From assembly GCF_026965535.1 (NCBI RefSeq), contig NZ_CP114039.1, positions 3,720,001 to 3,784,000 of the forward strand: DNA of 64,000 nucleotides, written 5' to 3'. The position numbers and the translations under genes were made by a program. Positions 12,243 through 56,713 of this stretch are shown piece after piece; within the stretch, counting starts at the first letter, position 1, and every line of letters begins with the position of its first letter. The notes under the pieces are model-generated. The model saw only the letters and a list, made by a program, of their open reading frames with translations, searched no databases and was not told where the DNA came from. The DNA comes from Corallococcus sp. NCRR (GTDB lineage: Bacteria > Myxococcota > Myxococcia > Myxococcales > Myxococcaceae).

Positions 12243-12947
12243 ATGGAGCCAGATGTGAAGGGCAACACGGGGCCGCTGGGCCATGATGCCGCCGCCTACG
12301 CGCGGCGTCAGGACGGGCTGTCCCCGGAGCCGCTGCGGGACGCGGCCTGGAGCGTGGCGGGGCAGCGGGCCTTCGGCGTGGTGCTCGACGTGGGCTCGGG
12401 CAGCGGCGGGTGGATCCGCCGGCTGCGACAGAACCCGGCCGTCGAGCGCATCCTCAGCACGGACATCCACGACGCGGGCGCCAGCCGCCTGCCGGGCGTG
12501 GAGTTCCAGCTGCGGGACGTGTCCCGGGACGCGCTGCCGTGGGGCGATGCGTCGGTGGACTGGGTGTTCGCCATTGAAGTGCTGGAGCACCTGGCCAACC
12601 CGCGCCACTTCGTGAAGGAGGCCTTCCGCGTGCTCAAGCCCGGGGGCCACCTCTTCTTCACCACGCCCAACAACGACAGCCTGACGGCGCGGCTGTCCTT
12701 CCTGGTCCGGGGCTACTTCCCCGCGTTCTGCGAGCAGGACTACCGGGACTCCGGCCACATCACGCCCATCACGGAGCTGGACGCGCGGCGCATGGCCGTG
12801 GAGGCGGGCTTCCAGTCCATCGACTTCGACTATCCGCTGCCCGGGCGCATTCCCCGCAGCAGCGTGTACTGGCAGCGGTTCCTGCCGGGGCTGCGCGGCC
12901 GGTGGTGGAGCGACGGGCTGTTCGCGCTGCTGACGCGCCCGCGCTGA
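12243..12947 (+). CDS. Class I SAM-dependent methyltransferase
   Basis: 234 residues. Motif I is VVLDVGSGSGGWIRRL; the acidic end of beta-2 is STDIHD; motif IV region VDWVFAIEVLEHLANP and post-motif FRVLKPGGHLFFTTPNND are typical of Methyltransf_11-type enzymes. The acceptor is unknown. Two basic or aromatic patches near the C-terminus (LPGRIPRSSVYWQRFLPG) suggest substrate or membrane contact. It precedes the Tag gene by 28 bp on the same strand and may be co-transcribed. Confidence 0.88.
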   Translation: MEPDVKGNTGPLGHDAAAYARRQDGLSPEPLRDAAWSVAGQRAFGVVLDVGSGSGGWIRRLRQNPAVERILSTDIHDAGASRLPGVEFQLRDVSRDALPWGDASVDWVFAIEVLEHLANPRHFVKEAFRVLKPGGHLFFTTPNNDSLTARLSFLVRGYFPAFCEQDYRDSGHITPITELDARRMAVEAGFQSIDFDYPLPGRIPRSSVYWQRFLPGLRGRWWSDGLFALLTRPR

Positions 12948-12975
12948 AGTAGACAGGGAATCGGGAGGAGCGCGG

Positions 12976-13542
12976 ATGCAACAGCGTTGCGTGTGGGTGG
13001 GGACGGATCCGCTGTACCAGACCTACCATGACGAGGAGTGGGGCGTGCCGGTGCGCGACAGCCGCGCGCTCTGGGAGATGTTGATGCTGGAGGGCTTCCA
13101 GGCGGGGCTCGCGTGGATCGTCATCCTGCGCAAGCGCGAGGCCTTCCGGAAGGCGTTCAAGGGCTTCGACCCGAAGGTGGTGGCGCGCTTCACGGAGAAG
13201 GACGTCACGCGCCTGATGGGGGACGAGGGCATCGTCCGGGCGCGCGCGAAGATTGAAGCGACCATCGGCAACGCGCGCGCTTATTTGAAGATGCAGGAGG
13301 CGGGCGAGGACTTCTCCGCGTTCGTCTGGGGCATGGCGGGCGGGAAGCCCATCCGCAATGTGTGGAAGGGCCGGGGCGACGTGCCGGCGAAGACGGAGCT
13401 GTCGGAGGCGTACTCCAAGGCCTTCAAGCAGCGCGGCTTCAAGTTCGTGGGGCCGGTCATCGTCTACGCATGGATGCAGGCCACGGGCATCGTGGATGAC
13501 CACACGGTGGACTGCTTCCGGCACGGCGTGCGTCACCGCTGA
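12976..13542 (+). CDS. tag: DNA-3-methyladenine glycosylase I
   Basis: 188 residues, the usual length of Tag. The zinc-snap ligands are in place: Cys5 (QQRCVWVG), His18 (YHDEEWG) and the C-terminal DDHTVDCFRH. The family helix GFQAGLAWIVILRKREAFRKAF and GRGD/NVWKG segments are present. The enzyme removes 3-methyladenine from alkylated DNA, starting base excision repair in the cytoplasm. The start ATG 12976 has GGAG a few bases upstream. Confidence 0.95.
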   Translation: MQQRCVWVGTDPLYQTYHDEEWGVPVRDSRALWEMLMLEGFQAGLAWIVILRKREAFRKAFKGFDPKVVARFTEKDVTRLMGDEGIVRARAKIEATIGNARAYLKMQEAGEDFSAFVWGMAGGKPIRNVWKGRGDVPAKTELSEAYSKAFKQRGFKFVGPVIVYAWMQATGIVDDHTVDCFRHGVRHR

Positions 13543-13601
13543 GCGGACGGGCCTTCGCGGGCGGTGGACCGGGGCCGCCGGGTGCTGGTTTAACGGAGCG
13601 C

Positions 13602-15068
13602 ATGCGCTTGCCCCTCATCGTCGCGGTGCTGTTGCTCTCATGGCATGCCGGGGCTGAACCGGCTCCCACGGTTCCCCGCTTCGAGCCGGGCGCCTGCGCC
13701 GTGGAGGTCGCCGCCACGGAGCGCATCGACTGTGGCCTGCTGGTGGTGCCGGAGAACCGGCACAAGGCGGACAGCCGCCCCATCCGCCTTCCCGTGACGA
13801 TCTTCCGCGGCCGTGCCGCGAAGCCCCTGGCGGATCCGGTGCTGTTCATGCCCGGAGGCCCGGGCCTCAGCGCGGTCGAGCACATGACCTCCGGCAAGAA
13901 CAACACGCTGCTGGACGAGCGCGACTACATCGTCCTGGAGCAGCGCGGCGCGAAGTTCGCGCAGCCGCCGCTCCAGTGCCCGGAGATCACGAAGCTCAAG
14001 GGCGAGGAGTCCGCGGGCCGGCTGCGCGGTCCGGCGGCGGCCACCGCGCTGGCGCAGGCGGCGGGACGCTGCCGGGCAACGCTGAGCGCGTCGGGCGTGG
14101 ACCTGGATGGCTACACCAGCGAGGCCTCGGCGGATGACATCGAGGACCTGCGCAAGGTGCTCGGCGTGGCGCGGTGGAATCTCTACGGCGTGTCGTACAG
14201 CACGCGGCTGATGTTGACCGTGCTGCGGCGGCACCCCGGAGGCGTCCGGAGCGTGGTGCTGGATTCGGTGCTGCCTCCGGAGGTGAACTTCGACGAGGTC
14301 TCCGCCACGAACGTGCTGCGCGTCCTGAATCAGGTGTTCGACGGGTGCGCGGTGGACCGCGAGTGCGGCGCCCGGTATCCCGACCTGCGCGCTCGCTTCG
14401 CGAAGCTGGTGGCCGACGCGGACCGTCGCCCCCTGAAGCTGGCCATCCGGGCGGCCGGCGGGCCGGCGGAGATCCGGGGCGCACAGGTGGTGGAGGCCAT
14501 CTACTCCGCGATGCACGAACCCGTACAGATTCCCCTCATCCCGAAGCTCATCGTGGACGCTTCCGAGGGGCGCTTCGAAGCCCTGTCAGGGCTGATCCGT
14601 GGCAACCAGGGGCCCTCGGCCATGGCCTGGGGCCTGCGCTATTCCGTGTGGTGCGCGGAGGAGCTGCCGTTCGAGGACGCGGGGCGCATCGCCGCGCAGC
14701 TCTCACCCGCCATGGGACTGGGCGGCTTGAATGAGGGGACGGCCTCGCCGCAGGAGTGCCGCGCATGGAACGTCCCCCCCGCGCCCGCCGTGGAGAACAC
14801 GCCGGTGAAGAGCGACGTGCCGGCGCTCGTCTTCGCGGGAGAGTTCGACCCGGACACGCCTCCGGAGTGGGGCCACCGGCTGCTCGATTCGATGCCCAAC
14901 GCGTACCCCGTCGACATGCGGGGCCGCAGCCACGCGGCCTCGTTCAACACGTGCGGCGCGAGCATCGTGAAGGCCTTCCTCCAGGACCCCTCGCATCCGC
15001 CCGCCGTTGACTGCGCGCTCAAGCGGCGCGGCGCGGACTTTTCCCTGAGCGTGCGGCCCCCTCCCTGA
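13602..15068 (+). CDS. Secreted alpha/beta hydrolase, TAP-like (tripeptidyl aminopeptidase/proline iminopeptidase type)
   Basis: 488 residues with a signal peptide MRLPLIVAVLLLSWHAGAEP. The hydrolase features are FMPGGPGLSA (oxyanion), nucleophile elbow NLYGVSYSTRL, Asp in GEFDPDTPPEWG and His in RGRSHAASFN. The last two fall in the TAP-like C-terminal domain, which places it with secreted mycelial-type peptidases. Eight cysteines suit an extracytoplasmic protein. Likely role: releasing amino acids or short peptides from external proteins. Confidence 0.9.
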   Translation: MRLPLIVAVLLLSWHAGAEPAPTVPRFEPGACAVEVAATERIDCGLLVVPENRHKADSRPIRLPVTIFRGRAAKPLADPVLFMPGGPGLSAVEHMTSGKNNTLLDERDYIVLEQRGAKFAQPPLQCPEITKLKGEESAGRLRGPAAATALAQAAGRCRATLSASGVDLDGYTSEASADDIEDLRKVLGVARWNLYGVSYSTRLMLTVLRRHPGGVRSVVLDSVLPPEVNFDEVSATNVLRVLNQVFDGCAVDRECGARYPDLRARFAKLVADADRRPLKLAIRAAGGPAEIRGAQVVEAIYSAMHEPVQIPLIPKLIVDASEGRFEALSGLIRGNQGPSAMAWGLRYSVWCAEELPFEDAGRIAAQLSPAMGLGGLNEGTASPQECRAWNVPPAPAVENTPVKSDVPALVFAGEFDPDTPPEWGHRLLDSMPNAYPVDMRGRSHAASFNTCGASIVKAFLQDPSHPPAVDCALKRRGADFSLSVRPPP

Positions 15069-45147: not shown

Positions 45148-47316
45148 TCAGACTCCCTCGTCGAGGATGGGAAAGCGCGTGGGCATGGTGCCCGTCGCCC
45201 GGGCAATGGCGTTGGCCAGGGCCGCCGCCGCGCTGGGGTAGCCCAGCTCTCCCACGCCGCCCACGCGGTCGTCGGAGCGCACGAGGTGCACCTGGATGGA
45301 GGCGGGGGCGTGCTTCATCCGCAGCCACCGGTAGTCCGCGAAGCTGCCCTCGCGCACGGCGCCCGCGTCGATGTGGAGCCCGGCGCTCAACGTGGTGGAC
45401 ATCGCGTCCATCGCGGCGCCCTGGAGCTGGGCCTCGATGCCCTTCGGGTTGATGGGCAGCCCCACGTCCGCGGCGATGACCACGCGCAGCACGCGCGGCG
45501 TCCCGGACGTGACGTCCACTTCGACGAGGTGGGCGATGGTGCTGTCCCACTCCTCCAGCACGGCGACACCCTGCGCGACACCGGGAGGCAGCGCGCGGCC
45601 CCAGGCGCCTTCTTGCACCACCCGCTCCAGCACGGCCTTGAGCCTGCGGGACGTGAGGCGGGAGCGCCGCAGCTCCACCGGGTCGCGCTGGAGCTCGCGG
45701 GCCAACTGGTCGACGAAGATTTCGTTGGCCACGCCCACCTGGCTGGTGAAGACGGAGCGGAAGGACGCGGTGGGAATGGGGAGCGGCACCTCGGCCAGCT
45801 CCTGCGCCACCCAGCCGAACTGGTAGGGGACGTGCTGCGTCAGCGCGAAGAACACCGCGCTGGTGACGTCCGGCAGGACCTGTCCGACCAGGGAGGTGAG
45901 CAGGTCTCCGAAGCCGTGGGGGAACTCCACGGTGGGGATGGCGGCGCGGTGCTGCCAGCCGAGGATGGAACCGCCGGGACCCAGCGAGGCGAGGATGCGG
46001 TGATGGCTGGCGGGCCGGTAGTGCCCGTGGCGCATCTCGTCGTTGCGGCTCCACATCAGCTTCACCGGATGCCCGAGCGCGCGCGAGATGAGCGCGGCCT
46101 CCACGGCGGCCTCGGTGAAGAAGCGCCGGCCAAAGCCTCCTCCGGCGCGGATGGGATGCACGGTGACCCGCTGCGGAGTGAGCGCCCATCCGAGCGCCGC
46201 GGCGACCTGGCTCCGCGCGAACTTCGGATCCTGGACGCCGGACCAGATCTCCGCCGTGTCCGCCGTCACACGCGCCACGCAGCTCTGCGTCTCCATGGGC
46301 GCGTGCGCGAGGTACGGGAAGTCGAAGCGTCCCTCCACGACCCGGGTCGTGAAGAGCGGAGGCAGCGGCCGGGGCCCGATGGCGTCACGCAGCCGCGTCC
46401 GGATGTCGGCGTCGGAGAGGTGGCTGGCCGGGCCGGCGGCCCAGGTGACCTGCAAGGCGTCGCGAGCGGCGAAGGCCTGCGAGTACGTCCGCGCCGCCAC
46501 CGCGATGCCTGAGGGAATCTGCACCACGCCGACCACGCCAGGCAGGGCCCGGGCCGTGGAGGCATTGAAGGACTGGACCTTGCCGAGCAGCGTGGGAGGC
46601 CGCGCCACCACCGTGGGCACGGCGTCCGGGATGTCCAGGTCCAGGGTGAAGCGCGCCGCGCCGGTGACGATGTCCCGGGCGTCGACGCGGCCCGTGGGCT
46701 GTCCGACCACGGTGTACTTGCTCGGAGACTTCGGCAGCGGAGAGACCTCCGGCAGCAGCACGCGCGTGGCGTCCTCCGCCAGCTCGCCGTAGCCGAGCCT
46801 GCGTCCGTCGGGATGGCGCACTTCTCCCCGCGCGGTGGTGAGCGTGAGGGCCAGCACCCGCCAGCGGTGCGCGGCGGCGGTGACCAGCCGCGCCCGGGCA
46901 TCCGCGGCGGCGGCGCGGAGCGGACCGGCCAGGTAGCGCATCGTCGAGGACAGGCCGGTGAGCTGGATGAGCCAGCGCGGATCCGCGTCGGCGGTGTGCA
47001 CGTCCACGACGTCGAGGCCCGTGTCGAGTTCCTCCGCGACGAGCATGGCCACGGCGGTGGTGATGCCCTGGCCCATCTCCGTGCGGGGCAGGGTGGCGAC
47101 GACGCGTCCGTCCGTCCTGATGGCGACGTAGAGGTTGAGCGGCGTCTCCTCCGGGGCTGTCGAAGGCTCCGAAGCCTCGGCGGAGGGAACGTCGAGCGCG
47201 AGCCGGGCCGCGATCATCAACGTGGGCGAAGCCACCAGCCACGTGAGGAACTTGCGGCGGTCGAGTCCTTCAGGAGGAGCCGGGAGCGCTGTGTCCGTGG
47301 GCGGCAGGTCAGCCAT
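45148..47316 (-). CDS. iorB: Molybdopterin-binding subunit, isoquinoline 1-oxidoreductase type
   Basis: 722 residues from ATG 47316. [21 protein letters not shown] at the N-terminus is a twin-arginine signal, so the enzyme is exported folded. Typical IorB motifs follow: [53 protein letters not shown], and [21 protein letters not shown], ending [20 protein letters not shown] with the catalytic Glu region. It hydroxylates an N-heterocycle or aldehyde; the substrate is unknown. The upstream TTG at 47322 is less likely than this ATG. Confidence 0.9.
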
Positions 47317-47506
47317 GGGCAAAGTCTCTCACGCGGCCAAGGGCGGTCCCAACGACCTGGCAAGCCCTGTGCGGCACCTGTCACCTGGCGCGCGGAAGCA
47401 TCCGGGACACGACCTGGGACCTGGAGCCTGGGGCGGGACGCGCGCGATGCTTCGGGGGATACTGGCGGCCGGTGCTCCCATGGAGGCGGGGGCGAGGACG
47501 GACGTC

Positions 47507-50107
47507 ATGCGCAGGTGGCTCATCGGTGGAGTGGCGGTCCTGGTCGCGTGCGGCCTCGTGCTGTTCCTGTCGCTGCGCTCTGGTGGCCCCGGCGTGCCGG
47601 AGGGCCACGCGGAAACCACGCAGCCGCGGAAGCGTCCCACGAACCCCGTGCTCACACCGGAGCGCCTGGACCCTGAAGAAGCGCTTCCGGCGTCGCGGTC
47701 CCCGAATGAAGCGGATGGCATCCTGGACGTGGAGGTGCTCGCGGACGGGAAGCCTTCACCCGGCACCACCGTGCGTCTCTACGCACGGGGCGCGCGGGCG
47801 TCCACCTGGGTTCTGATGGGCTCTGGGGTCACGGATCCGCGAGGACACGTCCGGCTTGCCTCCGGACCCGGGCGCTACCTGGTGGCGGTGCGCGCTCCGG
47901 GCCGGGCCCCGCTGCTGCACGGCGTGTCCCGCCCGCTTGGCGAGTCGCGCACCGCGCTGCGGATCTCCCTGGAGCCCGCGCAATCCCTCACGGGCCGCAC
48001 GGTGGTGCGCGGAACGAATGAACCGCTTCCGCTCGTGGAGGTCGTCCTCACGGCGCACGCCCGTGACATGGAGTCCTGGCAACGCCCGGATGCTCCCGAC
48101 GACGAGCGTGTCTATGCGACGAGCGACGAGCGCGGGAACTTCCGCGTCGATGGCCTCGCCCCGGGCACCTACGTGCTGGAGGCCCGCGCGCCCGGCTACG
48201 CGCGCGTGGTGCTGAGCCGCGTGAGCATCCCCACGGAGGGCCCGCTGACGCTGGCGCTCCGGCTGGCGAGCGTCATCGAGGGCTTCGTCGTGGACTCGAA
48301 GGGCCTGCCAGCCGCGGACGCAGAGGTCCAGGTCGGCGGCAGCCCCTCTCAGGTCGTGACGACGGGCGCGCAGGGCGGCTTCTCCGTGGAGGTGGAGCCC
48401 GGCTCCCATCTGCTGTCCGCGCGGCGCGGAGAGGAGTCCGGCGCGCTCGACCTGCCGGTCCTCTGCGTCGCGGGCAGCACCGTGCGCGACGTGCGCATCC
48501 AACTGGGACCGGGCGCGGTGCTGGAGGGCCGCGTCGTGGAGGCGCCTTCGGGCAAGCCCGTGGAGGGAGCGCGCGTCGAGGTCAGCCTCTCCGGTGGGGA
48601 CGGAGACCCCGGCGTCACCCTGTCGGACGCGGAGGGGCACTTCGTCGTGCGGGGGCTCGCCCCCGGCGGCTACGACGCGAAGGTCACGGCCTCGGGCTAC
48701 TCGCCCGTCATGCGCCGGGGCCTGACGGTCACCCAGGGGGAACACTTTCCCGTGGAGATCCAGCTCTCGGGCACCGGCGCGGTGGAGGGCCAGGTGCGCG
48801 ACCGCAATGGAGCGCCGGTGGCCGCGGCCCGCATCTCCGGCATCAACGGCTGGAGCCGCGGAGTGGAGTTGACCTCCGTCGATGCCCGCACGGACGCGGA
48901 CGGCCGCTACCGGATCGAGGGGCTCGCCACGGGCACCCTGTCCCTCTCCGCGAGCCATGAGGGCTCCACGGCGGGCATCCGCCAGACCGTCTCCGTGGAG
49001 GAGAACCGCACGGCGCGGGCGGACTTCACCCTGGATGGCGCGGGGACCCTCGAAGGCCGGGTGCGCGCGGCCCGTGGAACCCTCGCGAACGGGCCGCTGG
49101 AGGTGACGGCCATCGCGGACGCGCAGCCCGGGGCCACGGGGATGACCCTCGGCACCACCGCGGTGGGCGCGGACGGGGCGTTCCAGATGAACCTTCCCGC
49201 CGGTGCCTACTCGGTCACGGTCTCAGCGCGCGGCCGTTTCGCCCAGAGCAAGCGGGAGCAGGTGCGCGTGGAGGCGGGACGGACAGCCCGGGTCGAGTTC
49301 ATCTGGGAGGAACCGCCCGAGGATCGCGCGTTCCGGGGGGCCGTCCTGGAGCCGGATGGCTCGCCGTCGCCCCACGCCTTCATTACCCTCACGGCCGCGG
49401 AGGGAGCGGGTGCCCCCCTGTCGATGACGCCCACGGATGCGGAGGGGCGCTTCGTCATTTCCTTCAGACCAGGGTTCGACATCCCGAACCGCGTGCTGCT
49501 GGTCGCACGCAATGGAGGACGCTCGAGCGAGCCCGTGCCCGTCAGCCTCGAAAAGGAGGTGGTGGTGCGGCTGAGGCCCTCGGCCTTCCTGCGTGGCCGC
49601 GTGGTGCGCAAGGGCGAGCCTGTTCGCGGCTTCACCCTCTCGCTCCAGCTCCAGAAGGGCTACCTCCCCAAGGGCGAAGGCCCCTTCGAGTTCTCCGGCG
49701 ACCGCTTCGAGCTGCGCGACGTCCCGCCCGACCCCGTGAAGCTGACGGCGCGCACGGTGGACGGCTCCATCGGCGAGACCACGATCGCTCCCACCACGGG
49801 CGCGGTGCTCGAAGTCGAAATCCCCCTGGAGGCCTCTGGCACCGTGCGGGGCCGGGTGGTGGACGCGGCCACGAAGACGCCCGTCTCCGGCGCGTTCGTC
49901 TTCATCGAAGGGGAGCAGCCCTTGCTGGAGCACGTCTCCAACTCGGAGGGCCGCTTCTCCGTCGGCGGGGTGCGCGCGGGCGAGCGCGTCCTCCTCATCC
50001 TGGGCGGCCCTTCGCGGGGACGTCTGCGCCGGCCGTTGAAGATGAAGGATGGTGACGTGCTGGACCTGGGCGACGTGTCCATGGAGGTGGCCCAGCCCAC
50101 GCCGTGA
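47507..50107 (+). CDS. Large membrane-anchored carboxypeptidase-regulatory-like repeat protein
   Basis: 866 residues from ATG 47507. An N-terminal membrane segment (WLIGGVAVLVACGLVLFLSL) is followed by about nine beta-sandwich domains of the carboxypeptidase-regulatory-like/transthyretin type, each with a G-x-V...A...G-x-F/Y-x-x-x-x-L-x-x-G-x-Y pattern (for example GNFRVDGLAPGTYVLEARAP, GHFVVRGLAPGGYDAKVTAS, GRYRIEGLATGTLSLSASHE). It should form a rod-like surface protein for adhesion or carbohydrate binding. Longer readings start in a region that overlaps the divergent iorB promoter. No catalytic motif. Confidence 0.85.
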   Translation: MRRWLIGGVAVLVACGLVLFLSLRSGGPGVPEGHAETTQPRKRPTNPVLTPERLDPEEALPASRSPNEADGILDVEVLADGKPSPGTTVRLYARGARASTWVLMGSGVTDPRGHVRLASGPGRYLVAVRAPGRAPLLHGVSRPLGESRTALRISLEPAQSLTGRTVVRGTNEPLPLVEVVLTAHARDMESWQRPDAPDDERVYATSDERGNFRVDGLAPGTYVLEARAPGYARVVLSRVSIPTEGPLTLALRLASVIEGFVVDSKGLPAADAEVQVGGSPSQVVTTGAQGGFSVEVEPGSHLLSARRGEESGALDLPVLCVAGSTVRDVRIQLGPGAVLEGRVVEAPSGKPVEGARVEVSLSGGDGDPGVTLSDAEGHFVVRGLAPGGYDAKVTASGYSPVMRRGLTVTQGEHFPVEIQLSGTGAVEGQVRDRNGAPVAAARISGINGWSRGVELTSVDARTDADGRYRIEGLATGTLSLSASHEGSTAGIRQTVSVEENRTARADFTLDGAGTLEGRVRAARGTLANGPLEVTAIADAQPGATGMTLGTTAVGADGAFQMNLPAGAYSVTVSARGRFAQSKREQVRVEAGRTARVEFIWEEPPEDRAFRGAVLEPDGSPSPHAFITLTAAEGAGAPLSMTPTDAEGRFVISFRPGFDIPNRVLLVARNGGRSSEPVPVSLEKEVVVRLRPSAFLRGRVVRKGEPVRGFTLSLQLQKGYLPKGEGPFEFSGDRFELRDVPPDPVKLTARTVDGSIGETTIAPTTGAVLEVEIPLEASGTVRGRVVDAATKTPVSGAFVFIEGEQPLLEHVSNSEGRFSVGGVRAGERVLLILGGPSRGRLRRPLKMKDGDVLDLGDVSMEVAQPTP

Positions 50108-50113
50108 GGCGCG

Positions 50114-50812
50114 TCAGCCCCGCGTGCGCCGCCAGCCCGGGGGCACGCCGTCGCGCAGCACCTCCGCCACCGCCACCGCGCAGGCGAAGCTGGTCGTCAT
50201 GGGCACCTGCCTCCAGTGGCCTCCCATGTAGAGCTTCACTTCCCGCTCCTTCACGACGTGGTCCACCTTCACGTCCGCGCCCACGTGCTCCAGGAGGGCG
50301 GTGTCGCCCACGGACACCACGGACTCCAGCTGCGCGGGCAGGGTGTGCATCGCGCCCGCGGAGGAGGCGATGAGGGCGCCCCGTGCCGCCGCGCGGTCGG
50401 TGAGCTCCCGCATGGAGGCCTCCAGCGCGCGGTGGGGTGTGCCCAGGCTCAGGTTGAGCACGTCCACGCCCACCTCCTCCAGCATCCACCCCATCGCCTC
50501 CACGAGGCACAGCGAGTGTCCGCGGCTGTTCCCGTCGAGGACGCGGGCGACGTAGACCTCCACGTCCGGCCACGGGCGGACCTGGTCGTGGAGGATGCTC
50601 AGGACGGCCGTGCCGTGCCCGTGCGTGTCCTCCAGGTCCAGCGTGCCGGTGCCATCCCGCCACGCCTCCAGCTCCGCCCGCTCGTAGGCGCGCGCCTCCA
50701 GCACCTGCGCGTCCAGGTCGAGCGAGAAGGACGCCGCCCCGGCCAGGTGCACCCCGTGCTCGCGCAGGAAGGCCACCTCCACGCCGCTGTCGATGATGCC
50801 CACCTTCTTCAC
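50114..50812 (-). CDS. Compact subtilisin-like (S8) protease of the peptide cluster
   Basis: 232 residues, close to a bare catalytic core without signal peptide or prodomain. Asp in VGIIDSGVEV, His in DTHGHGTAVLSIL, Asn-side SSAGAMH and Ser in MTTSFACAVAVAE (usual GTS replaced by TTS). It is the last gene of a coupled run (start overlaps the previous stop by ATGA). In lanthipeptide clusters a similar S8 protease removes leader peptides; that role is the natural inference here because the exporter lacks its own peptidase. It could instead be intracellular. Confidence 0.85.
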   Translation of the reverse strand: MKKVGIIDSGVEVAFLREHGVHLAGAASFSLDLDAQVLEARAYERAELEAWRDGTGTLDLEDTHGHGTAVLSILHDQVRPWPDVEVYVARVLDGNSRGHSLCLVEAMGWMLEEVGVDVLNLSLGTPHRALEASMRELTDRAAARGALIASSAGAMHTLPAQLESVVSVGDTALLEHVGADVKVDHVVKEREVKLYMGGHWRQVPMTTSFACAVAVAEVLRDGVPPGWRRTRG

Positions 50813-51114
50813 GGCGAGGCGCCTCCCGGCCGCGTTGGGCTCCAGAGCCTCAACTGCCGGAACACATAGGTGCCCAGCGACACGGACTCCGTGCGGGGCG
50901 GGACGGCGTCCGGAGCGGACACGGTCAGGTGCACGAGCGAACCCGCGAGCACCATCCCCGCGCCCAGCACCAGTACGAGCAGCAACGTGAGGGTGCCGAT
51001 GCGCCGCACGACGAAGAGGCCGGCGTGCTCCGGGTCCTCCAGGATTGGCAGCGGCGCGGTGGGGAGCGGGAGCTCCTTCGCCATGACCGGGACCCTTTCT
51101 TTCCGCCGCGTCAT
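50809..51114 (-). CDS. Single-helix membrane protein of the peptide cluster
   Basis: 101 residues starting at ATG 51114, which overlaps the exporter stop. One membrane helix (TLTLLLVLVLGAGMVLAGSLV) lies between a short polar N-terminus and a tail of about 45 residues ending in a WSPTRPGG segment. The stop overlaps the protease start. No family recognised. It could be an accessory or adaptor for the exporter, such as a reduced membrane-fusion protein, or an anchor for the protease. Confidence 0.75.
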   Translation of the reverse strand: MTRRKERVPVMAKELPLPTAPLPILEDPEHAGLFVVRRIGTLTLLLVLVLGAGMVLAGSLVHLTVSAPDAVPPRTESVSLGTYVFRQLRLWSPTRPGGASP

Positions 51115-52913
51115 GCGGCGTCCGCCTCGCCCATGCCCGCGCGGAACAGCCGCTGGTACGGCGCGCAGCGCCCGAGCAGCTCCGCGTGCGGCCCCTGGCC
51201 CACCAACTGGCCCCCCGCGAGCATCCACACCTCGTCGGCCAGGAGCACGTTGGCCAGCCGGTGCGTGATGAACAGCACCGTCTGGCCGCGCTCCCTGGCC
51301 CGCGCGAGCAGCGCCCGCACGATGGCGGACTCCGTCTCCACGTCGAGCTGCGAGGTGGCTTCGTCCAAGAGCAGCACGGGCGCGTCGCGCAGCACCGCCC
51401 GGGCCAGCGCCAGCCGCTGCCGCTGGCCGCCGGAGAGGCTCGCGCCCGCCTCGGCCACCGGCGTGTCGAAGCCCTGTGGCAGCGCGTCCAGGACGGGCTC
51501 CAGCGCGCACAGCCGCACGGCCTGCCGCAGGTCCTCGTCGCTCACGGCGGAGAGCCCCAGGGTGAGGTTGTCGCGCACGGTGCCGTGGTACAGCTCCACG
51601 TCCTGCCACACCACCGCGAGCTGCCGGCGCAGGTCGGACAGCTCCAGCGTCCGCGCGTCCCGCCCGTCGAACAGCACGCGCCCCCGGCCCGGCTCCTCCA
51701 GCCGCGTCAGCATCCGCGCGAGCGTCGTCTTCCCGGAGCCGCTGGAGCCGACGATGGTCACCACCGCGCCGGGCCGGATGCGCGCGCTCACCTCGCGCAG
51801 CACGTCCTGACCGGGCAGGTAGCCGAAGGACACGTCCTCCAGCTCCACCGCGCCGGAGAGCCGCTGCGTCACCGGAGCCGGCGGCGTCAGCGAGCGGGCC
51901 GGGTCCTGCTCCGGCGTCTCGTGCAGGTACTCGAAGAAGCGGCGCAGGTGGACCCCGCGCTGCTGCAGGCCGGTGACGAAGCCGATGACCTCGATGACCG
52001 GCCCGCGCAGGTACGCGGCATACGCCACGAAGGCCACGAAGCCGCCCAGCGTCAGCTTCCCCTGGAGGATGAGCCGCCAGCCCAGCCAGGTGAACAGCGC
52101 CGTCTGCGCGGCCTCCACCGCGCGCTCGAACAGCCGCAGCAGCCCCTCCACGCCATGGGCCTTGAGGTGCGCCCGCAGCACGGACTGCATGAGCCCCGCG
52201 GCGCGCTGGTAGATGAACGGCTCCAGCGCCAGCACCTTCGTGGTGCGGCTCTGCCGCAGCGTCTCCACCTGGAGCGCCTGGAGGGCGCCGTGCACGCCCA
52301 TCACCTCCTGCCACGCGAGCCCCATGGCGCGGCCGATGAGCAGCGGCACCGCCACCACGAAGGGCAGCGTGGCCACGGCCGCGAGCGCCAGCTCCCAGTG
52401 CAGTGACGCCAGGGTGAAGGGGATGACGACCAGGAAGGTGAGCTGCGAGAAGACCAGCCGGATGAGCCCCAGCACCAGCGCCATGCCCGCCTTCGCGTCG
52501 TCGAAGCGGCTGGTGAGCTCCCCCACCTGGCGCCGGGAGAAGAAGCGGTCCGGCAGGTGCTGCAGGTGGTTGAAGAGATAGAGCGCGGCGGAGCTCTCCA
52601 GCTTCACCGTGAGGTACGAGGAGTAGTAGCCGAACAGCGACTCCGCGAGCGCCGCCGCCACCGACGCGGCGAGGATGCTCAGCACCAGCACGTGCAACAG
52701 CCCCAGGTCCCGCGGGGACGACACGTGGTCGAACAACAGCCGCGTGAGGAAGGGCGGGATGAGCAGGAGCCCGGCGATGACCGGGCCCAGCATCGCGCTC
52801 CTCACGAGCGAGCCCCACGCCGGACGCAAGAGCCGCAGCAGCGCGGCGAGATAGCGCGCCGACTGCCGCAGCCCGGGGGCCCCTTCTGTCCGCATCGCGC
52901 CGCCCGCTTCCAT
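51111..52913 (-). CDS. ABC exporter (fused membrane and ATPase domains) without peptidase domain
   Basis: 600 residues from ATG 52913, sharing TGATG with the stop of the previous gene. The membrane domain has six helices (RLLRPAWGSLV, LSILAASVAAALAESLFGYY, LALAAVATLPFVVAVPLLIG). The ATPase domain has IVGSSGSGKTTLARML, Q-loop VVWQDVE, signature LSGGQRQRLALARAV, Walker B LLLDEATS and switch THRLANV. It belongs to the peptide/lipid exporter class, but lacks the N-terminal C39 double-glycine peptidase often found in bacteriocin exporters. It most likely exports the three small peptides encoded upstream. Confidence 0.92.
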   Translation of the reverse strand: MEAGGAMRTEGAPGLRQSARYLAALLRLLRPAWGSLVRSAMLGPVIAGLLLIPPFLTRLLFDHVSSPRDLGLLHVLVLSILAASVAAALAESLFGYYSSYLTVKLESSAALYLFNHLQHLPDRFFSRRQVGELTSRFDDAKAGMALVLGLIRLVFSQLTFLVVIPFTLASLHWELALAAVATLPFVVAVPLLIGRAMGLAWQEVMGVHGALQALQVETLRQSRTTKVLALEPFIYQRAAGLMQSVLRAHLKAHGVEGLLRLFERAVEAAQTALFTWLGWRLILQGKLTLGGFVAFVAYAAYLRGPVIEVIGFVTGLQQRGVHLRRFFEYLHETPEQDPARSLTPPAPVTQRLSGAVELEDVSFGYLPGQDVLREVSARIRPGAVVTIVGSSGSGKTTLARMLTRLEEPGRGRVLFDGRDARTLELSDLRRQLAVVWQDVELYHGTVRDNLTLGLSAVSDEDLRQAVRLCALEPVLDALPQGFDTPVAEAGASLSGGQRQRLALARAVLRDAPVLLLDEATSQLDVETESAIVRALLARARERGQTVLFITHRLANVLLADEVWMLAGGQLVGQGPHAELLGRCAPYQRLFRAGMGEADAA

Positions 52914-55897
52914 CACAGGTGCGTGAGCACGCTCCGCGCCAGCGCGTCCACTTCCTCCGGGATGGCGTGGACGCGCAGGCCGGTGTGCTGCTCCATCTTC
53001 CGCCGCGCCTCCTCCAGGACCTCGTCCCGGACGCCCAGGAACCACGTCTCCGTCCAGCGGCTGCCCAGCAGCTTGCGCCCGCCCATCATCGCCAGGCCCA
53101 CCACCGTGCAGGGCACGCCGTGCTCGCGGGCCAGCGACTCCACGTACTCGCGCGTCGCGATGACGTCCTCGGGCTTCGTGTCCACCGCCACGGTGAGCAC
53201 CACCAGGCGCGGCAGGAACGTCTCGTAGATGTGCGTGGAGGCGTTGGCCCGGCGGTCCTGGCCCTGCGGCACGTAGAGCAGGCCGTTCTGTCCGCCGGTG
53301 ATGACCAGGTCGCAGTCCTTCGCCAGCTCCGTCATGAGCCGCCGCTCGAACGCCAGCCGCTGCGGGCCCTCCACGCGCAGCACGCGCGAGTAGCCCGTGT
53401 CCGAGCCCAGCAGGATGCCCGTGGGCTCCGTGGCGTGGTGGCGCACGCGCACGTGCTTCGCCAGCGCTTCGCGCAGGTAGACCTGCGTGGTGAACTTGCC
53501 CTGCACCGTGTCCGTGCCGAAGACGCCCAGCAGGTTGCGCGGGCCGTAGTCCGCCAGGGCCGGCTTCGCGAGCGCGTCCTGCTCCGGCACCGCCACGCGG
53601 AAGAAGAGCTCCGGGTCCGGCTCCAGCCCGTCGAAGAGGTCGTAATAGAGGATGTCGTCGTACAGCGACACCACCGGCAGCCGCCTGCGCGTGGCCACCT
53701 CCAGGAGCGCGCGGACGTGCGGGACCTCGGACTCGAAGTTGAGCGAGCAGGTGAACACGACCGCGTCGAAGTCATGACTCGCGATGGCCGCCGGGTCGTT
53801 CACCACCGGCACGGACAGCTCACCCGCCTGGATGTACGTGCCCGCGTCGCTGAGCGTCACCGCGTCGTCGAAGACGACGCACGCCGGGGCGGGGCTGCGG
53901 TCGCGGAAGCGCAGGAGCGCGTAGCCTTCCTTGTTGTACTTGAAGACGGCGGTCCGCTTGCCCGCGAGCACCTCCATCACCTGCGCGCGCGTGTACATGT
54001 GACGGCTGCGCAGCGTGGGGTTCATCTTCAGGGGCAGCCGCTGGTCGCCCTCCCAGATTTCACCCAGCTTCTGGTACAGCACCTCCGGGTCGTACTTGGG
54101 ATAGGTGCGCGTGTCCGGCGCGATGAGCAGCGGAACGCCGTAGTCCGGCATCTGGAAGACGTGCTCGCGCTCGGAGCCCTCCACGCGCAGCGCGTAGCGG
54201 CCCTGCGGGTGCAAGAGGAAGTACTGGAACGCGACGCGCAGCCCCTCGACCTCCAGCACCTCCGCGTCCAGCGTCAGCTCCCGGCGCGCCCCGGTGTTCA
54301 CGCCCTCCAGCGACAGCCGGCGCAGCAGGAACGGCGGCTGCTCCTGCCCGCCGGCCTTGCTCACCTGGATGAGCACGCACTTGAAGGGGTCCACCGGGAA
54401 GGACGTGAGCAGCTCCGAGGAGAAGTCCTTCAGCCGCGACACGACGTCCGCGTAGCGCGCGAGGAACAGGGAGCGCGCCCGGTCCCGCTGTGTCGGGTCC
54501 GGAATCATGAACAGCAGGTCGCTGCCGCTGAAGACCTCGAAGCGGCGCCACGTCTCGCGCGTCTCCGCGTCCACCGGCTCCGGCAGCTGCGCCTCCACCA
54601 GCTTGATGAGCGCGTACATCCACGCGTTGCCCGGCGTCAGCCAGTGCTCGCTGTAGAAGTCGCGCCCCCACGTCGAATAGTAGAGCCGGGGCAGCGACGG
54701 CGGCTCGGGCGGCGGCGGGGCGGCCTGGACTTCGACGGGCGCGGCGGGCTGCATGACGCCCTCCAGCCACTCGATGCCTTCGTGCCACCAGTGGCCGAAC
54801 AGCTCCGTGTCGAACGCGAGCACGAACGTCTGCCCGTCCTGCACGAGCGAGCGGCGCGAGTCCAACAGCTCCCAGAACTCGCGCACGTGGTGCTTCACCT
54901 GCGCGCGGGCGGCCTCCACGTCGTAGAGCGCCTTCTGGCCCAGGTCGACCTTCTGGCCCGTCACCGCCTGGTACTTGAGGCCCGTCCACACGTGCCCCCG
55001 CTTGTTCGCGGGCACGGGCACGCCCAGCTCCTCGAAGTACTCGGGCCGCAGGTCGAAGCCCACGTCCCGGAAGAACTCGCGGTACACCGGGTGCGCGGGG
55101 AACGTGGACTCGGGTGACTTCCACAGGTGCAGCCCGATTCGGTAGTCGTGGACGAGCACCTCCAGGTCCTCGTGGCGGAACACGCCGCTGGGGTCCTGGG
55201 CCTGGGACGCGCCAATGCCTGTCAGGCTGAGCGCGGTGCGGCGGATGCCATGGCGCGTGAGCACGCGCTCCAGCCCCGGCTGGAAGGCGCACTCGGGCAG
55301 CCAGAGGCCGTCCGGCTCGCCGCCGAAGGTGTCCTGGAAGGCCTCCACGCCCCGCGCCACCAGCCGGTCCGCGACGGCGGGCTGGAAGAAGGGAAGGAAG
55401 TTGTGCTGCGGCGTGGAGGTCCACAGCTGCACGTTGGACGGCCGATGGCGCCCCAGATTGGCGAACACGTCCCGCAGGCTGTGCTGCTGGAGGAACGCGA
55501 GGCTGTCCTCCACGCGCCGCAGGTACATGCCCGCGGTGCGGTGCACCCGCGCGAGCGACTCGTCCGACAGGGCCTGGGGATACTTCTCGTAGCGGTTGTA
55601 GAGGTCCAACCGCGACGTGCGCTCCAGTTCGCGCGTGGCGATGCGCTTGAGCAACTGGAGGTAGCCCGTGTAGCGCTCCTCGCAGGCGACGAGCTGTTCG
55701 AAGAGGCACGGGGTGAAGGACATCACCAGCGTGCCGGCGAAGCGCCGGGCATCCCAGCGCTCCAGCATCCGGAACAGCGGGATGTACGTCTCCGTCAGCG
55801 CTTCGAAGAGCCAGTTCTCCGGCTCATCGAAGAGGGGCCCCTCGCCCAACACCTGCGGCATGTGGGTGTTGAGGATCAGGGTGAGGCGCGTGTTCAT
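52913..55897 (-). CDS. GH57 (alpha-glucan branching-type) domain fused to DUF1611 P-loop domain
   Basis: 994 residues. GH57 core: FTPCLFEQL, GLWLPECAFQPG with the nucleophile Glu near 202, and AFDTELFGHWWHEGIEWLEG with the Asp near 363; then a C-terminal region like DUF1957/branching enzymes (STWGRDFYSEHWLTPGNAWM). Residues ~690-980 resemble DUF1611: AVVFTCSLNFESEVPHVR, Walker A FGTDTVQGKFTT, ITGGQNGLLYVPQGQDRR and VVGLAMMGGRKLLG. The two domain families act on glucans and on amino-acid or peptide-like substrates. Fusion and position between peptide genes and exporter suggest it modifies the peptides, perhaps by glycan transfer. Specific chemistry is unknown. Confidence 0.88.
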   Translation of the reverse strand: MNTRLTLILNTHMPQVLGEGPLFDEPENWLFEALTETYIPLFRMLERWDARRFAGTLVMSFTPCLFEQLVACEERYTGYLQLLKRIATRELERTSRLDLYNRYEKYPQALSDESLARVHRTAGMYLRRVEDSLAFLQQHSLRDVFANLGRHRPSNVQLWTSTPQHNFLPFFQPAVADRLVARGVEAFQDTFGGEPDGLWLPECAFQPGLERVLTRHGIRRTALSLTGIGASQAQDPSGVFRHEDLEVLVHDYRIGLHLWKSPESTFPAHPVYREFFRDVGFDLRPEYFEELGVPVPANKRGHVWTGLKYQAVTGQKVDLGQKALYDVEAARAQVKHHVREFWELLDSRRSLVQDGQTFVLAFDTELFGHWWHEGIEWLEGVMQPAAPVEVQAAPPPPEPPSLPRLYYSTWGRDFYSEHWLTPGNAWMYALIKLVEAQLPEPVDAETRETWRRFEVFSGSDLLFMIPDPTQRDRARSLFLARYADVVSRLKDFSSELLTSFPVDPFKCVLIQVSKAGGQEQPPFLLRRLSLEGVNTGARRELTLDAEVLEVEGLRVAFQYFLLHPQGRYALRVEGSEREHVFQMPDYGVPLLIAPDTRTYPKYDPEVLYQKLGEIWEGDQRLPLKMNPTLRSRHMYTRAQVMEVLAGKRTAVFKYNKEGYALLRFRDRSPAPACVVFDDAVTLSDAGTYIQAGELSVPVVNDPAAIASHDFDAVVFTCSLNFESEVPHVRALLEVATRRRLPVVSLYDDILYYDLFDGLEPDPELFFRVAVPEQDALAKPALADYGPRNLLGVFGTDTVQGKFTTQVYLREALAKHVRVRHHATEPTGILLGSDTGYSRVLRVEGPQRLAFERRLMTELAKDCDLVITGGQNGLLYVPQGQDRRANASTHIYETFLPRLVVLTVAVDTKPEDVIATREYVESLAREHGVPCTVVGLAMMGGRKLLGSRWTETWFLGVRDEVLEEARRKMEQHTGLRVHAIPEEVDALARSVLTHL

Positions 55898-55948
55898 GAG
55901 GGGACCGCGAGACGGGGGGAAGCGGGGGAGGCACAGCGGACCGCGGGG

Positions 55949-56167
55949 CTAGGCGCCGCCGCCGCAGTCCTCGGAGGGAGACGTCGCGCCGTCCTCGGAA
56001 CACAGCCGGTGGGCCGAGTTGTAGAGGTCCTGCCAGACCGTTCCCGGTCCCGAGGCGACGAGCGTGTACGTGGTGCTGGAGAAGTTCGACGTGGCGAAGC
56101 CCAGGACGTCCGGACCTCCGGTGACCTGCTCCAGCAACTCCGAGACATCCTTGCGCGTGAATCGCAT
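55949..56167 (-). CDS. Peptide 3 of tandem small-peptide family (putative RiPP precursor)
   Basis: 72 residues with GGAGGTCCCCG before the ATG. It begins MRFTRKDVSELLEQVTGGPD, then VLGFATSN, matching the other two copies. The second half is divergent: it has only two cysteines (RLCSEDG, SEDCGGGA) and no C-terminal Tyr. The charged leader-like first 30 residues and variable tail suit a precursor peptide. It stands directly upstream of the GH57-DUF1611 gene (51-bp gap). Confidence 0.8.
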   Translation of the reverse strand: MRFTRKDVSELLEQVTGGPDVLGFATSNFSSTTYTLVASGPGTVWQDLYNSAHRLCSEDGATSPSEDCGGGA

Positions 56168-56224
56168 CGGGGACCTCCGTGTGGCGGGTGGAACGGCGGA
56201 AGAAGGAAGGCGCGGGCCGCGGGG

Positions 56225-56446
56225 CTAGTAGCAGCCGAACGTGGAGCGGTCCTCGGCGGTGACGGAGCCGCCGTCCTCGCAGGTCCACTGGTAGGTCCAG
56301 GAGTTCTGCCAGACAGCGCCGCCGCCGAAGGAAGGCACCAGGTTCCAGGTGGAGCCGGCGAAGGTGGAGGTGCCGAAGCCCTGGACATCCGGGCTGCCCT
56401 GCACCGCGTTCAACAGCTCACTGACGTTCTTGCGCGTGTAACGCAT
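56225..56446 (-). CDS. Peptide 2 of tandem small-peptide family (putative RiPP precursor)
   Basis: 73 residues with GGAGCACTCCC before the ATG. It begins MRYTRKNVSELLNAVQGSPD and continues VQGFGTSTFAG. A GGG stretch occurs near residue 41, then a variable region rich in Trp, Tyr and Ser, and the end TCEDGGSVTAEDRSTFGCY, with two Cys bracketing acidic and Ser/Thr residues. The conserved first third and variable last half are as expected for leader and core. Confidence 0.85.
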   Translation of the reverse strand: MRYTRKNVSELLNAVQGSPDVQGFGTSTFAGSTWNLVPSFGGGAVWQNSWTYQWTCEDGGSVTAEDRSTFGCY

Positions 56447-56491
56447 TGGGAGTGCTCCGGGTGTGGCGTGGAAGGACCGCGAAGCAGGGTG

Positions 56492-56713
56492 CTAGTAGCA
56501 GCCGATCTGCGCCGCGTCCTCGAACACGGTCTGGCCGCCGTCCTCGCACATCCGGTGATTCGGGTTGTAGATGTCCTGGAGGATGTTGCCGCCCGCGGAC
56601 GGGGTGATGTTGTACGTGTAGCCGCCGATGGTGGACGTCCAGAAGCCCACCACGTCGGGGTTGCCCTGCACGGTGCCAAGCAGCTCGGAGATGTTCTTAC
56701 GGGTGTACCGCAT
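56492..56713 (-). CDS. Peptide 1 of tandem small-peptide family (putative RiPP precursor)
   Basis: 73 residues with GGAGTCCTCACC before the ATG. Begins MRYTRKNISELLGTVQGNPD, then VVGFWTSTIGG. A SAGG sequence near residues 39-42 lies where copy 2 has GGG. It ends MCEDGGQTVFEDAAQIGCY, closely matching copy 2. It is first of the three and of the whole run, about 160 bp downstream of an unrelated gene, so a promoter should lie between 56714 and 56870. Confidence 0.85.
   Translation of the reverse strand: MRYTRKNISELLGTVQGNPDVVGFWTSTIGGYTYNITPSAGGNILQDIYNPNHRMCEDGGQTVFEDAAQIGCY

Follow-up and report, generated by a model that had tools for sequence, protein, structure and literature searches.

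What does a myxobacterium produce with an operon that begins with three small Cys-containing peptides and continues with a protein joining a GH57 domain to a DUF1611 domain? This question is raised by a locus of Corallococcus sp. NCRR, whose genome of 9.79 Mb is contained in one contig (NZ_CP114039.1), and we analysed it in a stretch of 64,000 nucleotides from position 3,720,001 to 3,784,000 of this contig, here called the window. The operon is located on the minus strand from 56713 to 50114 and comprises, in this order, three peptides of 73, 73, and 72 residues, a GH57-DUF1611 fusion of 994 residues, an ATP-binding cassette (ABC) protein of 600 residues, a one-helix protein, and an S8 protease of 232 residues. 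A sequence-only reading of the window had placed seven genes there, and all of them are present. The best explanation overall, which we hold with moderate confidence, is that the operon would modify, trim, and secrete three leader-bearing peptides with a Cys...Glu-Asp...Cys core. Maturation and export in the manner of ribosomally synthesised and post-translationally modified peptides (RiPPs) is very probable, while glycosylation by the GH57 module as the main chemistry is a tentative proposal with somewhat less than an even chance. In window coordinates, the parts of the operon are:

56492..56713, minus strand: precursor peptide 1, 73 residues; leader about residues 1-24, core C-ED-x-ED-x-C
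56225..56446, minus strand: precursor peptide 2, 73 residues; same plan as peptide 1
55949..56167, minus strand: precursor peptide 3, 72 residues; same plan as peptide 1, with the most conserved core of the three
52913..55897, minus strand: GH57-DUF1611 fusion, 994 residues
54728..55897, minus strand: GH57 catalytic part of the fusion, about residues 1-390; E202 and D363 kept, motif-1 His replaced by Asn10
54398..54700, minus strand: segment of the fusion resembling the GH57 C-terminal helical domain, about residues 400-500; W410 and W419 kept
52913..53980, minus strand: DUF1611 part of the fusion, about residues 640-994; P-loop GTDTVQGKFTT at residues 794-804
51111..52913, minus strand: ABC exporter, 600 residues; membrane and ATPase domains, no C39 peptidase
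50809..51114, minus strand: one-helix protein, 101 residues (91 residues if the start is at 51084); no Pfam match
50114..50812, minus strand: S8 (subtilisin-like) protease, 232 residues, GTG start; Asp-His-Ser triad present

As had been claimed, the three peptides are paralogs in which the start is conserved while the Cys-containing end varies, and none of them matches a Pfam family at an E-value of 0.1 or any NCBIfam family. A leader of about 24 residues is shared across the precursors, and this combination of a conserved leader with a separate, variable core is found in two phyla. Concerning the cores, Glu-Asp is located between the first and the last Cys in 86 of the first 86 distinct precursors, whereas in sets of shuffled cores the same rule was obeyed by 3 on average and by 9 at most. 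These 86 precursors contain exactly two core Cys in 84 cases and three in 2, and Asp follows 160 of their 162 core Glu. A wider later search gave 43 proteins, 12 of them previously unlisted and together contributing 10 new sequences. All 10 turned up after the rule had been written down and all 10 obey it, bringing the running total to 96 of 96 precursors and to 183 of 185 Glu within Glu-Asp (shuffled fraction 0.058, maximum 0.119). With five further peptides, which also obey the rule and add one Glu outside Glu-Asp, the final tally is Cys...Glu-Asp...Cys in 101 of 101 distinct precursors, Asp behind 193 of 196 core Glu, and exactly two core Cys in 99 precursors and three in 2, in a set of related sequences that were found by similarity and are therefore not independent trials. 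At 55% identity, greedy clustering divides the cores into 11 groups, the outer Cys are separated by 6 to 45 residues, and the composition is poor in Lys (0.4%) and contains 22.5% Ser plus Thr. Three sequences were left out of the precursor counts, namely P0036 (135 residues, a precursor start running into GH57 sequence), P0039 (a fragment of 42 residues), and a leaderless core remnant in the Archangium-type operon of genome G006, which lies on the plus strand at L063:8131-8211 right behind the peptide gene in another frame.

The fixed Glu-Asp suggests that something happens at this site, be it a modification, a metal site, or a contact. Purifying selection acts strongly on the core of peptide 3 (omega 0.00-0.23 in 9 ortholog comparisons, with L055 omitted as it contains no ortholog), and the fusion has omega values of 0.15-0.39. 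For the cores of peptides 1 and 2 the values spread from 0.13 to 1.80 and from 0.11 to 1.01, several of them resting on few changes. Judged by these values, the precursors do not look like a fast-evolving toxin.

The peptides had been proposed to belong to the exporter and the GH57-DUF1611 gene, which would be contradicted if they were never neighbours in other genomes. However, the peptides adjoin the GH57-DUF1611, ABC, and S8 genes in 17 further loci of myxobacteria, to the extent that the contigs cover the region, and also in four loci of Bacteroidota. Of the 96 family genomes, 18 have a match to a profile of five peptides (15 of 16 in the genus, 2 of 6 in g3, and 1 of 4 in g6), the full-length fusion is present in 18 of 195 genomes of the phylum, of which 140 have some GH57 match, and the S8 subfamily is present in 18 of the 96 family genomes. 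These are the identical 18 genomes in all three cases, and G025, a member of the same genus, has neither the peptides nor the fusion nor the S8 subfamily. The probability of the coincidence of peptides and fusion is 7e-20 if the genomes were independent and 4e-4 if counted by genus (3 of 26), both being rough owing to relatedness. As this co-occurrence of peptides, fusion, and S8 protease shows, the arrangement by far exceeds what chance would give. Among the 18 loci fetched, 17 contain the operon, and the eighteenth, L064, is a lone peptide. The operon is complete in 14 of the 17, with one to three peptides, fusion, ABC, one-helix, and S8 genes always in this order, and cut by contig ends in the other 3 (ABC matches were counted from at least 45% identity in this survey and from at least 40% in that of the remaining loci). 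The precursor gene is thus accompanied, in several lineages, by genes dedicated to its processing and export. In addition, 12 genomes of the genus contain a two-gene cassette, in which a peptide of 62-64 residues with the operon-type leader directly precedes an S8 protease 54-57% identical to that of the operon. The cassette of the present genome is found at L010:7031-7962 (G000:C1:3325029-3325937) and encodes a peptide of 63 residues and a second S8 protease of the same subfamily, 55% identical to the operon's, and a lone peptide of 77 residues that belongs to the same peptide family is located on the minus strand at about L009 10643-10876 (G000:C1:7707660-7707875). Relatives of the operon on plasmids were looked for and none was found.

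The enzyme had seemed to be an oddity of this operon, and here the picture had to be corrected because it is restricted neither to the genus nor to the phylum. Among the best 7993 candidates scored in a database search, fusions were also found in Chondromyces crocatus and in a metagenome-assembled genome (MAG) of Polyangia, together with 14 relatives of 570-613 residues that lack the GH57 barrel. A pattern scan of the GTDB species genomes, which requires exact short patterns and thus gives a lower bound, revealed at least 16 loci, 12 in myxobacteria and 4 in Bacteroidota (Fulvivirga sp. M361, two Roseivirga MAGs, and one Bacteroidetes MAG). All four Bacteroidota loci encode a peptide of 51-58 residues (two in L127, and two also in the genome of L128), and in all four a GH57 gene directly precedes a separate DUF1611 gene. 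They further contain an ABC gene, an S8-like gene, and either a small membrane protein (three loci) or a full HlyD protein, which follows the ABC gene in L129. The arrangement varies: in L129 the ABC, HlyD, and S8 genes precede the peptide, and in L126-L128 the S8-like gene is on the opposite strand. The S8 protein of L129 has kept His and Ser, and an in-frame IIDSG is located upstream. The S8-like proteins of the other three loci, all encoded on the minus strand, have about 400 residues and a conserved Cys-rich C-terminal part (L126:14262-15488, L127:14257-15483, L128:14142-15353). L129 also has, beyond an apparent IS200-type transposase, a plus-strand gene at 12533-13972 for a MauE-family protein with a CxxC thioredoxin-like part, which could serve disulfide formation. 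The Bacteroidota DUF1611 protein P0060 and the precursor P0114 have a longest contig of 16931 in common and are probably encoded on one contig, likely a fifth locus of this phylum. Wider searches in Bacteroidota gave matches in 1 of 390 and 1 of 395 genomes, each time only in the genome at the centre of the search.

In the tree, the 8 fused proteins used form one clade against the 18 split ones (support 98/97, with some long branches uncertain), and one fusion event therefore suffices. The split point is located between the GH57 barrel and the segment resembling its C-terminal helical domain (hhalign E 3e-5, probability 72%, 79 columns), which stays on the DUF1611 gene. The two split polypeptides would have to meet to complete one GH57 active site, and this need argues for a single working unit.

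That both domains are part of one protein, as had been read, is borne out by the domain searches. The GH57 domain is detected by Pfam with an E-value of 9e-13 (48.6 bits against a cut-off of 21.2). DUF1611 reaches 23.6 bits, just below its cut-off of 25 bits, while the Fulvivirga protein scores 30.9, and by profile the DUF1611 part matches the structure 2g0t with an E-value of 6e-15. The equivalog models of GH57 branching enzymes are far from reached (134 of 920 and 122 of 1000 bits). In an alignment with solved GH57 enzymes, E202 and D363 coincide with their Glu and Asp, and both residues are conserved throughout (17 of 17 rows); in this family the conserved Glu and Asp are the nucleophile and the acid/base. 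W410 and W419, which presumably line the glucan cleft as such Trp residues do, are kept in all 16 rows with letters at these positions. By its sequence the GH57 module looks competent but altered, and the residues kept suggest that a sugar is involved. The DUF1611 part contains a Walker-A-like motif, GTDTVQGKFTT, that is invariant or nearly so across 20 rows, and the motifs FKYNKE, TEPTG, TGGQN, and RWTETxF, and is, as far as can be read from these residues, a separate branch of the family with its own conserved motifs.

The main rival to glycosylation by the GH57 module is carboxylate chemistry at the Glu-Asp sites. In this case the operon would follow a graspetide-like logic without an ATP-grasp enzyme, the DUF1611 P-loop activating the Glu-Asp carboxylates and linking them to Ser, Thr, or Cys, with the GH57 module binding or scaffolding. 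In favour of such a logic, 193 of 196 core Glu are found in Glu-Asp, the P-loop is invariant or nearly so, and the His of GH57 motif 1 is lost. Enzymes of graspetides indeed phosphorylate Asp or Glu and join them to Ser, Thr, or Lys, according to PMC13097080. However, the GH57 nucleophile, acid/base, and Trp residues have all been kept, the GH57 gene adjoins DUF1611 even where the two are split, no ATP-grasp family is found by Pfam or NCBIfam in the operon proteins, and Lys makes up only 0.4% of the cores, so that we regard this alternative as unlikely, albeit the strongest of those considered.

Concerning processing and export, the comparison with lanthipeptides that had been drawn for the exporter and the S8 protease is not the nearest one: the curated model closest to the protease is QhpE from the maturation of quinohemoprotein amine dehydrogenase (QHNDH), with 68 bits and thus below the equivalog cut-off of 165 bits. 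As described in PMC7876137, QhpE acts in the cytoplasm and cuts a leader of 28 residues off the cross-linked QhpC, which is then exported by the ABC protein QhpF. The ABC protein of the operon is indeed without a peptidase: Pfam gives ABC_membrane, ABC_tran, and weak generic P-loop/AAA matches but not C39, the peptidase domain by which a peptidase-containing ABC transporter (PCAT) would be recognised. The one-helix protein has no Pfam family at an E-value of 0.1 and one NCBIfam match at chance level (E 0.07). It is homologous over 51 columns to the small proteins of 161-172 residues in Bacteroidota (E 5e-10). Pfam does not find HlyD in it or in two of these small proteins, save for one spurious weak match, and its profile match to the full HlyD of L129 is very weak (E 0.01 at best, probability under 4%). 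Based on the homology to the small proteins and on the position of a full HlyD behind the ABC gene in L129, the one-helix protein is likely a reduced HlyD-type adaptor.

The proximity to QhpE also raises the possibility that the peptide ends as part of a larger secreted enzyme or surface protein and not as a free product. A leader, an S8 protease, and an ABC protein are also at work in the Qhp system (PMC7876137), and the low omega of 0.00-0.23 for the core of peptide 3 would suit a structural part. However, Pfam and NCBIfam find no radical-SAM enzyme, flavoprotein, or dehydrogenase subunit in the operon, and an operon with up to three different cores does not resemble one that encodes a single subunit. 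The QHNDH gamma family was found in 0 of 7 genomes, a weak test given that 14 control genomes were silent too. Altogether, such a fate of the peptides is very improbable.

It could also be that the peptides are just trimmed and exported as unmodified disulfide peptides, and that the fusion is merely co-expressed, for example for carbohydrate sensing or the turnover of storage glucan. The two core Cys in 99 of 101 distinct precursors (three in the other 2), the cassettes of peptide and S8 protease that have no adjoining fusion, and the MauE/thioredoxin-like gene near the operon in L129 are all in agreement with this. But peptides and fusion are found in the identical 18 genomes and adjoin each other in two phyla, a separate, ordinary GH57 paralog is encoded elsewhere in this genome, and a plain disulfide loop does not need a strict Glu-Asp pairing. 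Therefore, we consider this explanation improbable, although less so than the Qhp-like one.

We thus return to RiPP-type maturation with the fusion as the modifying enzyme. The sequences directly show which genes are present and that they are conserved, and also a shared leader of about 24 residues and the fixed signature of the cores. From here, the following course would be conceivable. First, the two-module enzyme would bind the precursor by its leader. The GH57 module, in which the nucleophile, the acid/base, and the two C-domain Trp have been kept, would then likely use glycogen or maltodextrin as donor and attach a glucosyl or short alpha-glucan unit to the core at a Ser, Thr, Tyr, or Cys. 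A second change, most probably at Glu-Asp, would likely be introduced by the DUF1611 module, which contains a P-loop and is a distant relative of the N-acetyltransferase DgcN. Subsequently, cleavage by the QhpE-like S8 protease would free the core from its leader while still in the cytoplasm, and the peptidase-less ABC exporter with its small partner would carry the core out of the cell, where the two Cys would probably form a disulfide loop displaying Glu-Asp. The sequence-only reading had suggested a new RiPP or glyco-peptide class. The genomic data support the RiPP-type operon well, while we infer that the core is modified at all and that a sugar is added to it. Taken in full, the proposal is a RiPP class of two phyla, in which a GH57 transglycosylase would have been recruited as peptide glycosylase and would work as one unit with a DUF1611 P-loop enzyme rewriting Glu-Asp within a Cys loop; this is possible, but we hold it more cautiously than glycosylation itself.

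Several observations weigh against this course. The His of GH57 motif 1 is an Asn in 16 of the 16 rows with a letter at this position, compared to His in 29 of 29 branching enzymes, and GH57 activity may thus be changed or lost; the module may bind instead of transfer. The DgcN model matches the DUF1611 part with 11 bits only (E 0.15), over the P-loop, while its equivalog cut-off is 480 bits. DgcN is known for an acetyl transfer. A role in the metabolism of D-type acidic amino acids is described for it in PMC12363236. In three of the four Bacteroidota loci (L126-L128), the S8-like proteins are devoid of the catalytic Asp, His, and Ser, which excludes them as the protease of these loci; perhaps they are leader-binding pseudoproteases. 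In G080 a partial fusion at the contig end is followed by the ABC gene, but neither a one-helix nor an S8 match is found in the rest of this contig of 5.9 kb, nor is there an S8 match anywhere in this genome. Lone peptides of the 77-residue type are present elsewhere in 9 genomes, and matches to fusion, one-helix protein, or S8 protease are absent from the five of these regions that were searched. The two-gene cassettes of 12 genomes count on both sides, in favour because a second S8 protease is again paired with a peptide, and against because no fusion is located beside them.

With respect to the boundaries of the operon, the overlaps TGATG, ATGA, and ATGA that had been described between its last four genes hold only in part. 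The last junction is GTGA and not ATGA because the protease begins with GTG, and the ATGA between the ABC and the one-helix gene depends on the start of the latter. Translation of the one-helix protein may, on weak evidence, begin at the second Met (51084), which has GGAAAGAAAGGG upstream and is where similarity begins in two aligned relatives; with this start, the ATGA overlap would not be a true start. The promoter search found no sigma-70-type promoters, the 2 terminators found compare to 1.8 expected, and PADLOC gave for the operon only ATPase-type matches on the ABC protein. An upstream gene of 264 residues was rejected as an operon member since it is present in 1 of 15 loci and has no Pfam family. 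The large CarboxypepD_reg repeat protein downstream (window 47135-50107, plus strand), which is found convergent to the operon in 14 of the 15 operon loci, was rejected as well because it is on the opposite strand and homologs are also present in 8 of 9 genomes without the operon, G025 being the one without.

If true, an enzyme family of storage glucans and a domain of unknown function would become peptide maturases, which would widen the chemistry accessible to genome mining. Genome searches that start from LanM, YcaO, ATP-grasp, or radical-SAM genes would miss such loci. LanM had been read as absent, and no lanthionine synthetase (LanM, LanB/C, and kin) is among the Pfam and NCBIfam matches of the seven proteins (for the ABC protein the best 25 of 198 NCBIfam matches), and neither ATP-grasp nor radical-SAM families are among these matches. 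To our knowledge, neither a RiPP pathway based on a GH-family enzyme nor a DUF1611 protein that modifies peptides is known so far, and the proposed pathway would be the first example of both; the literature searched, with most subscription journals and preprints outside its range, showed, in part as judged by titles, nothing linking GH57 or DUF1611 with RiPP precursors, and papers naming DUF1611 dealt, by their titles, with Dickeya and its phages. Because the leader is compact, the Cys...Glu-Asp...Cys signature strict, and the enzyme available from nature in split as well as fused form, the chemistry can be tested directly in E. coli.

How does the operon compare to known systems? With glycocins and further RiPPs that are glycosylated, the operon would share an exported, Cys-containing peptide that carries a sugar. 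The glycocin pathways depend on nucleotide-sugar glycosyltransferases and on an exporter of the C39 type, while by Pfam both are absent from the operon. With GH57 glucan branching enzymes the fusion shares the fold as judged by sequence, E202 and D363, and the two C-domain Trp, but it differs in the Asn for the motif-1 His (16 of 16 rows), in the C-domain being fused or shifted to the DUF1611 protein, and in scores of 122-134 bits against cut-offs of 920-1000. The DUF1611 proteins (the TM protein 2g0t and DgcN) have the P-loop GTDxxxGKxTT and its surroundings in common with the fusion (E 6e-15 to 2g0t), whereas the protein here comprises about 600 residues, with the GH57 C-domain-like segment in front and with motifs of its own, and gives 11 bits to the DgcN model. 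Graspetides such as the microviridins, plesiocin, and corallotide also combine a leader with a core rich in acidic residues, and corallotide comes from Corallococcus too, but according to PMC13097080 it is an ATP-grasp graspetide from a different cluster. In the operon, Pfam and NCBIfam find no ATP-grasp ligase, Lys is nearly absent from the cores, and there are two Cys per core. The Qhp maturation system contains the radical-SAM enzyme QhpD, the flavoprotein QhpG, and the dehydrogenase subunits, which the operon lacks, having the GH57-DUF1611 enzyme instead; but both combine, in one operon, a small leader-bearing precursor (with a leader of 28 residues in QhpC), a cytoplasmic subtilisin-like protease (QhpE), and an ABC exporter (QhpF), as described in PMC7876137.

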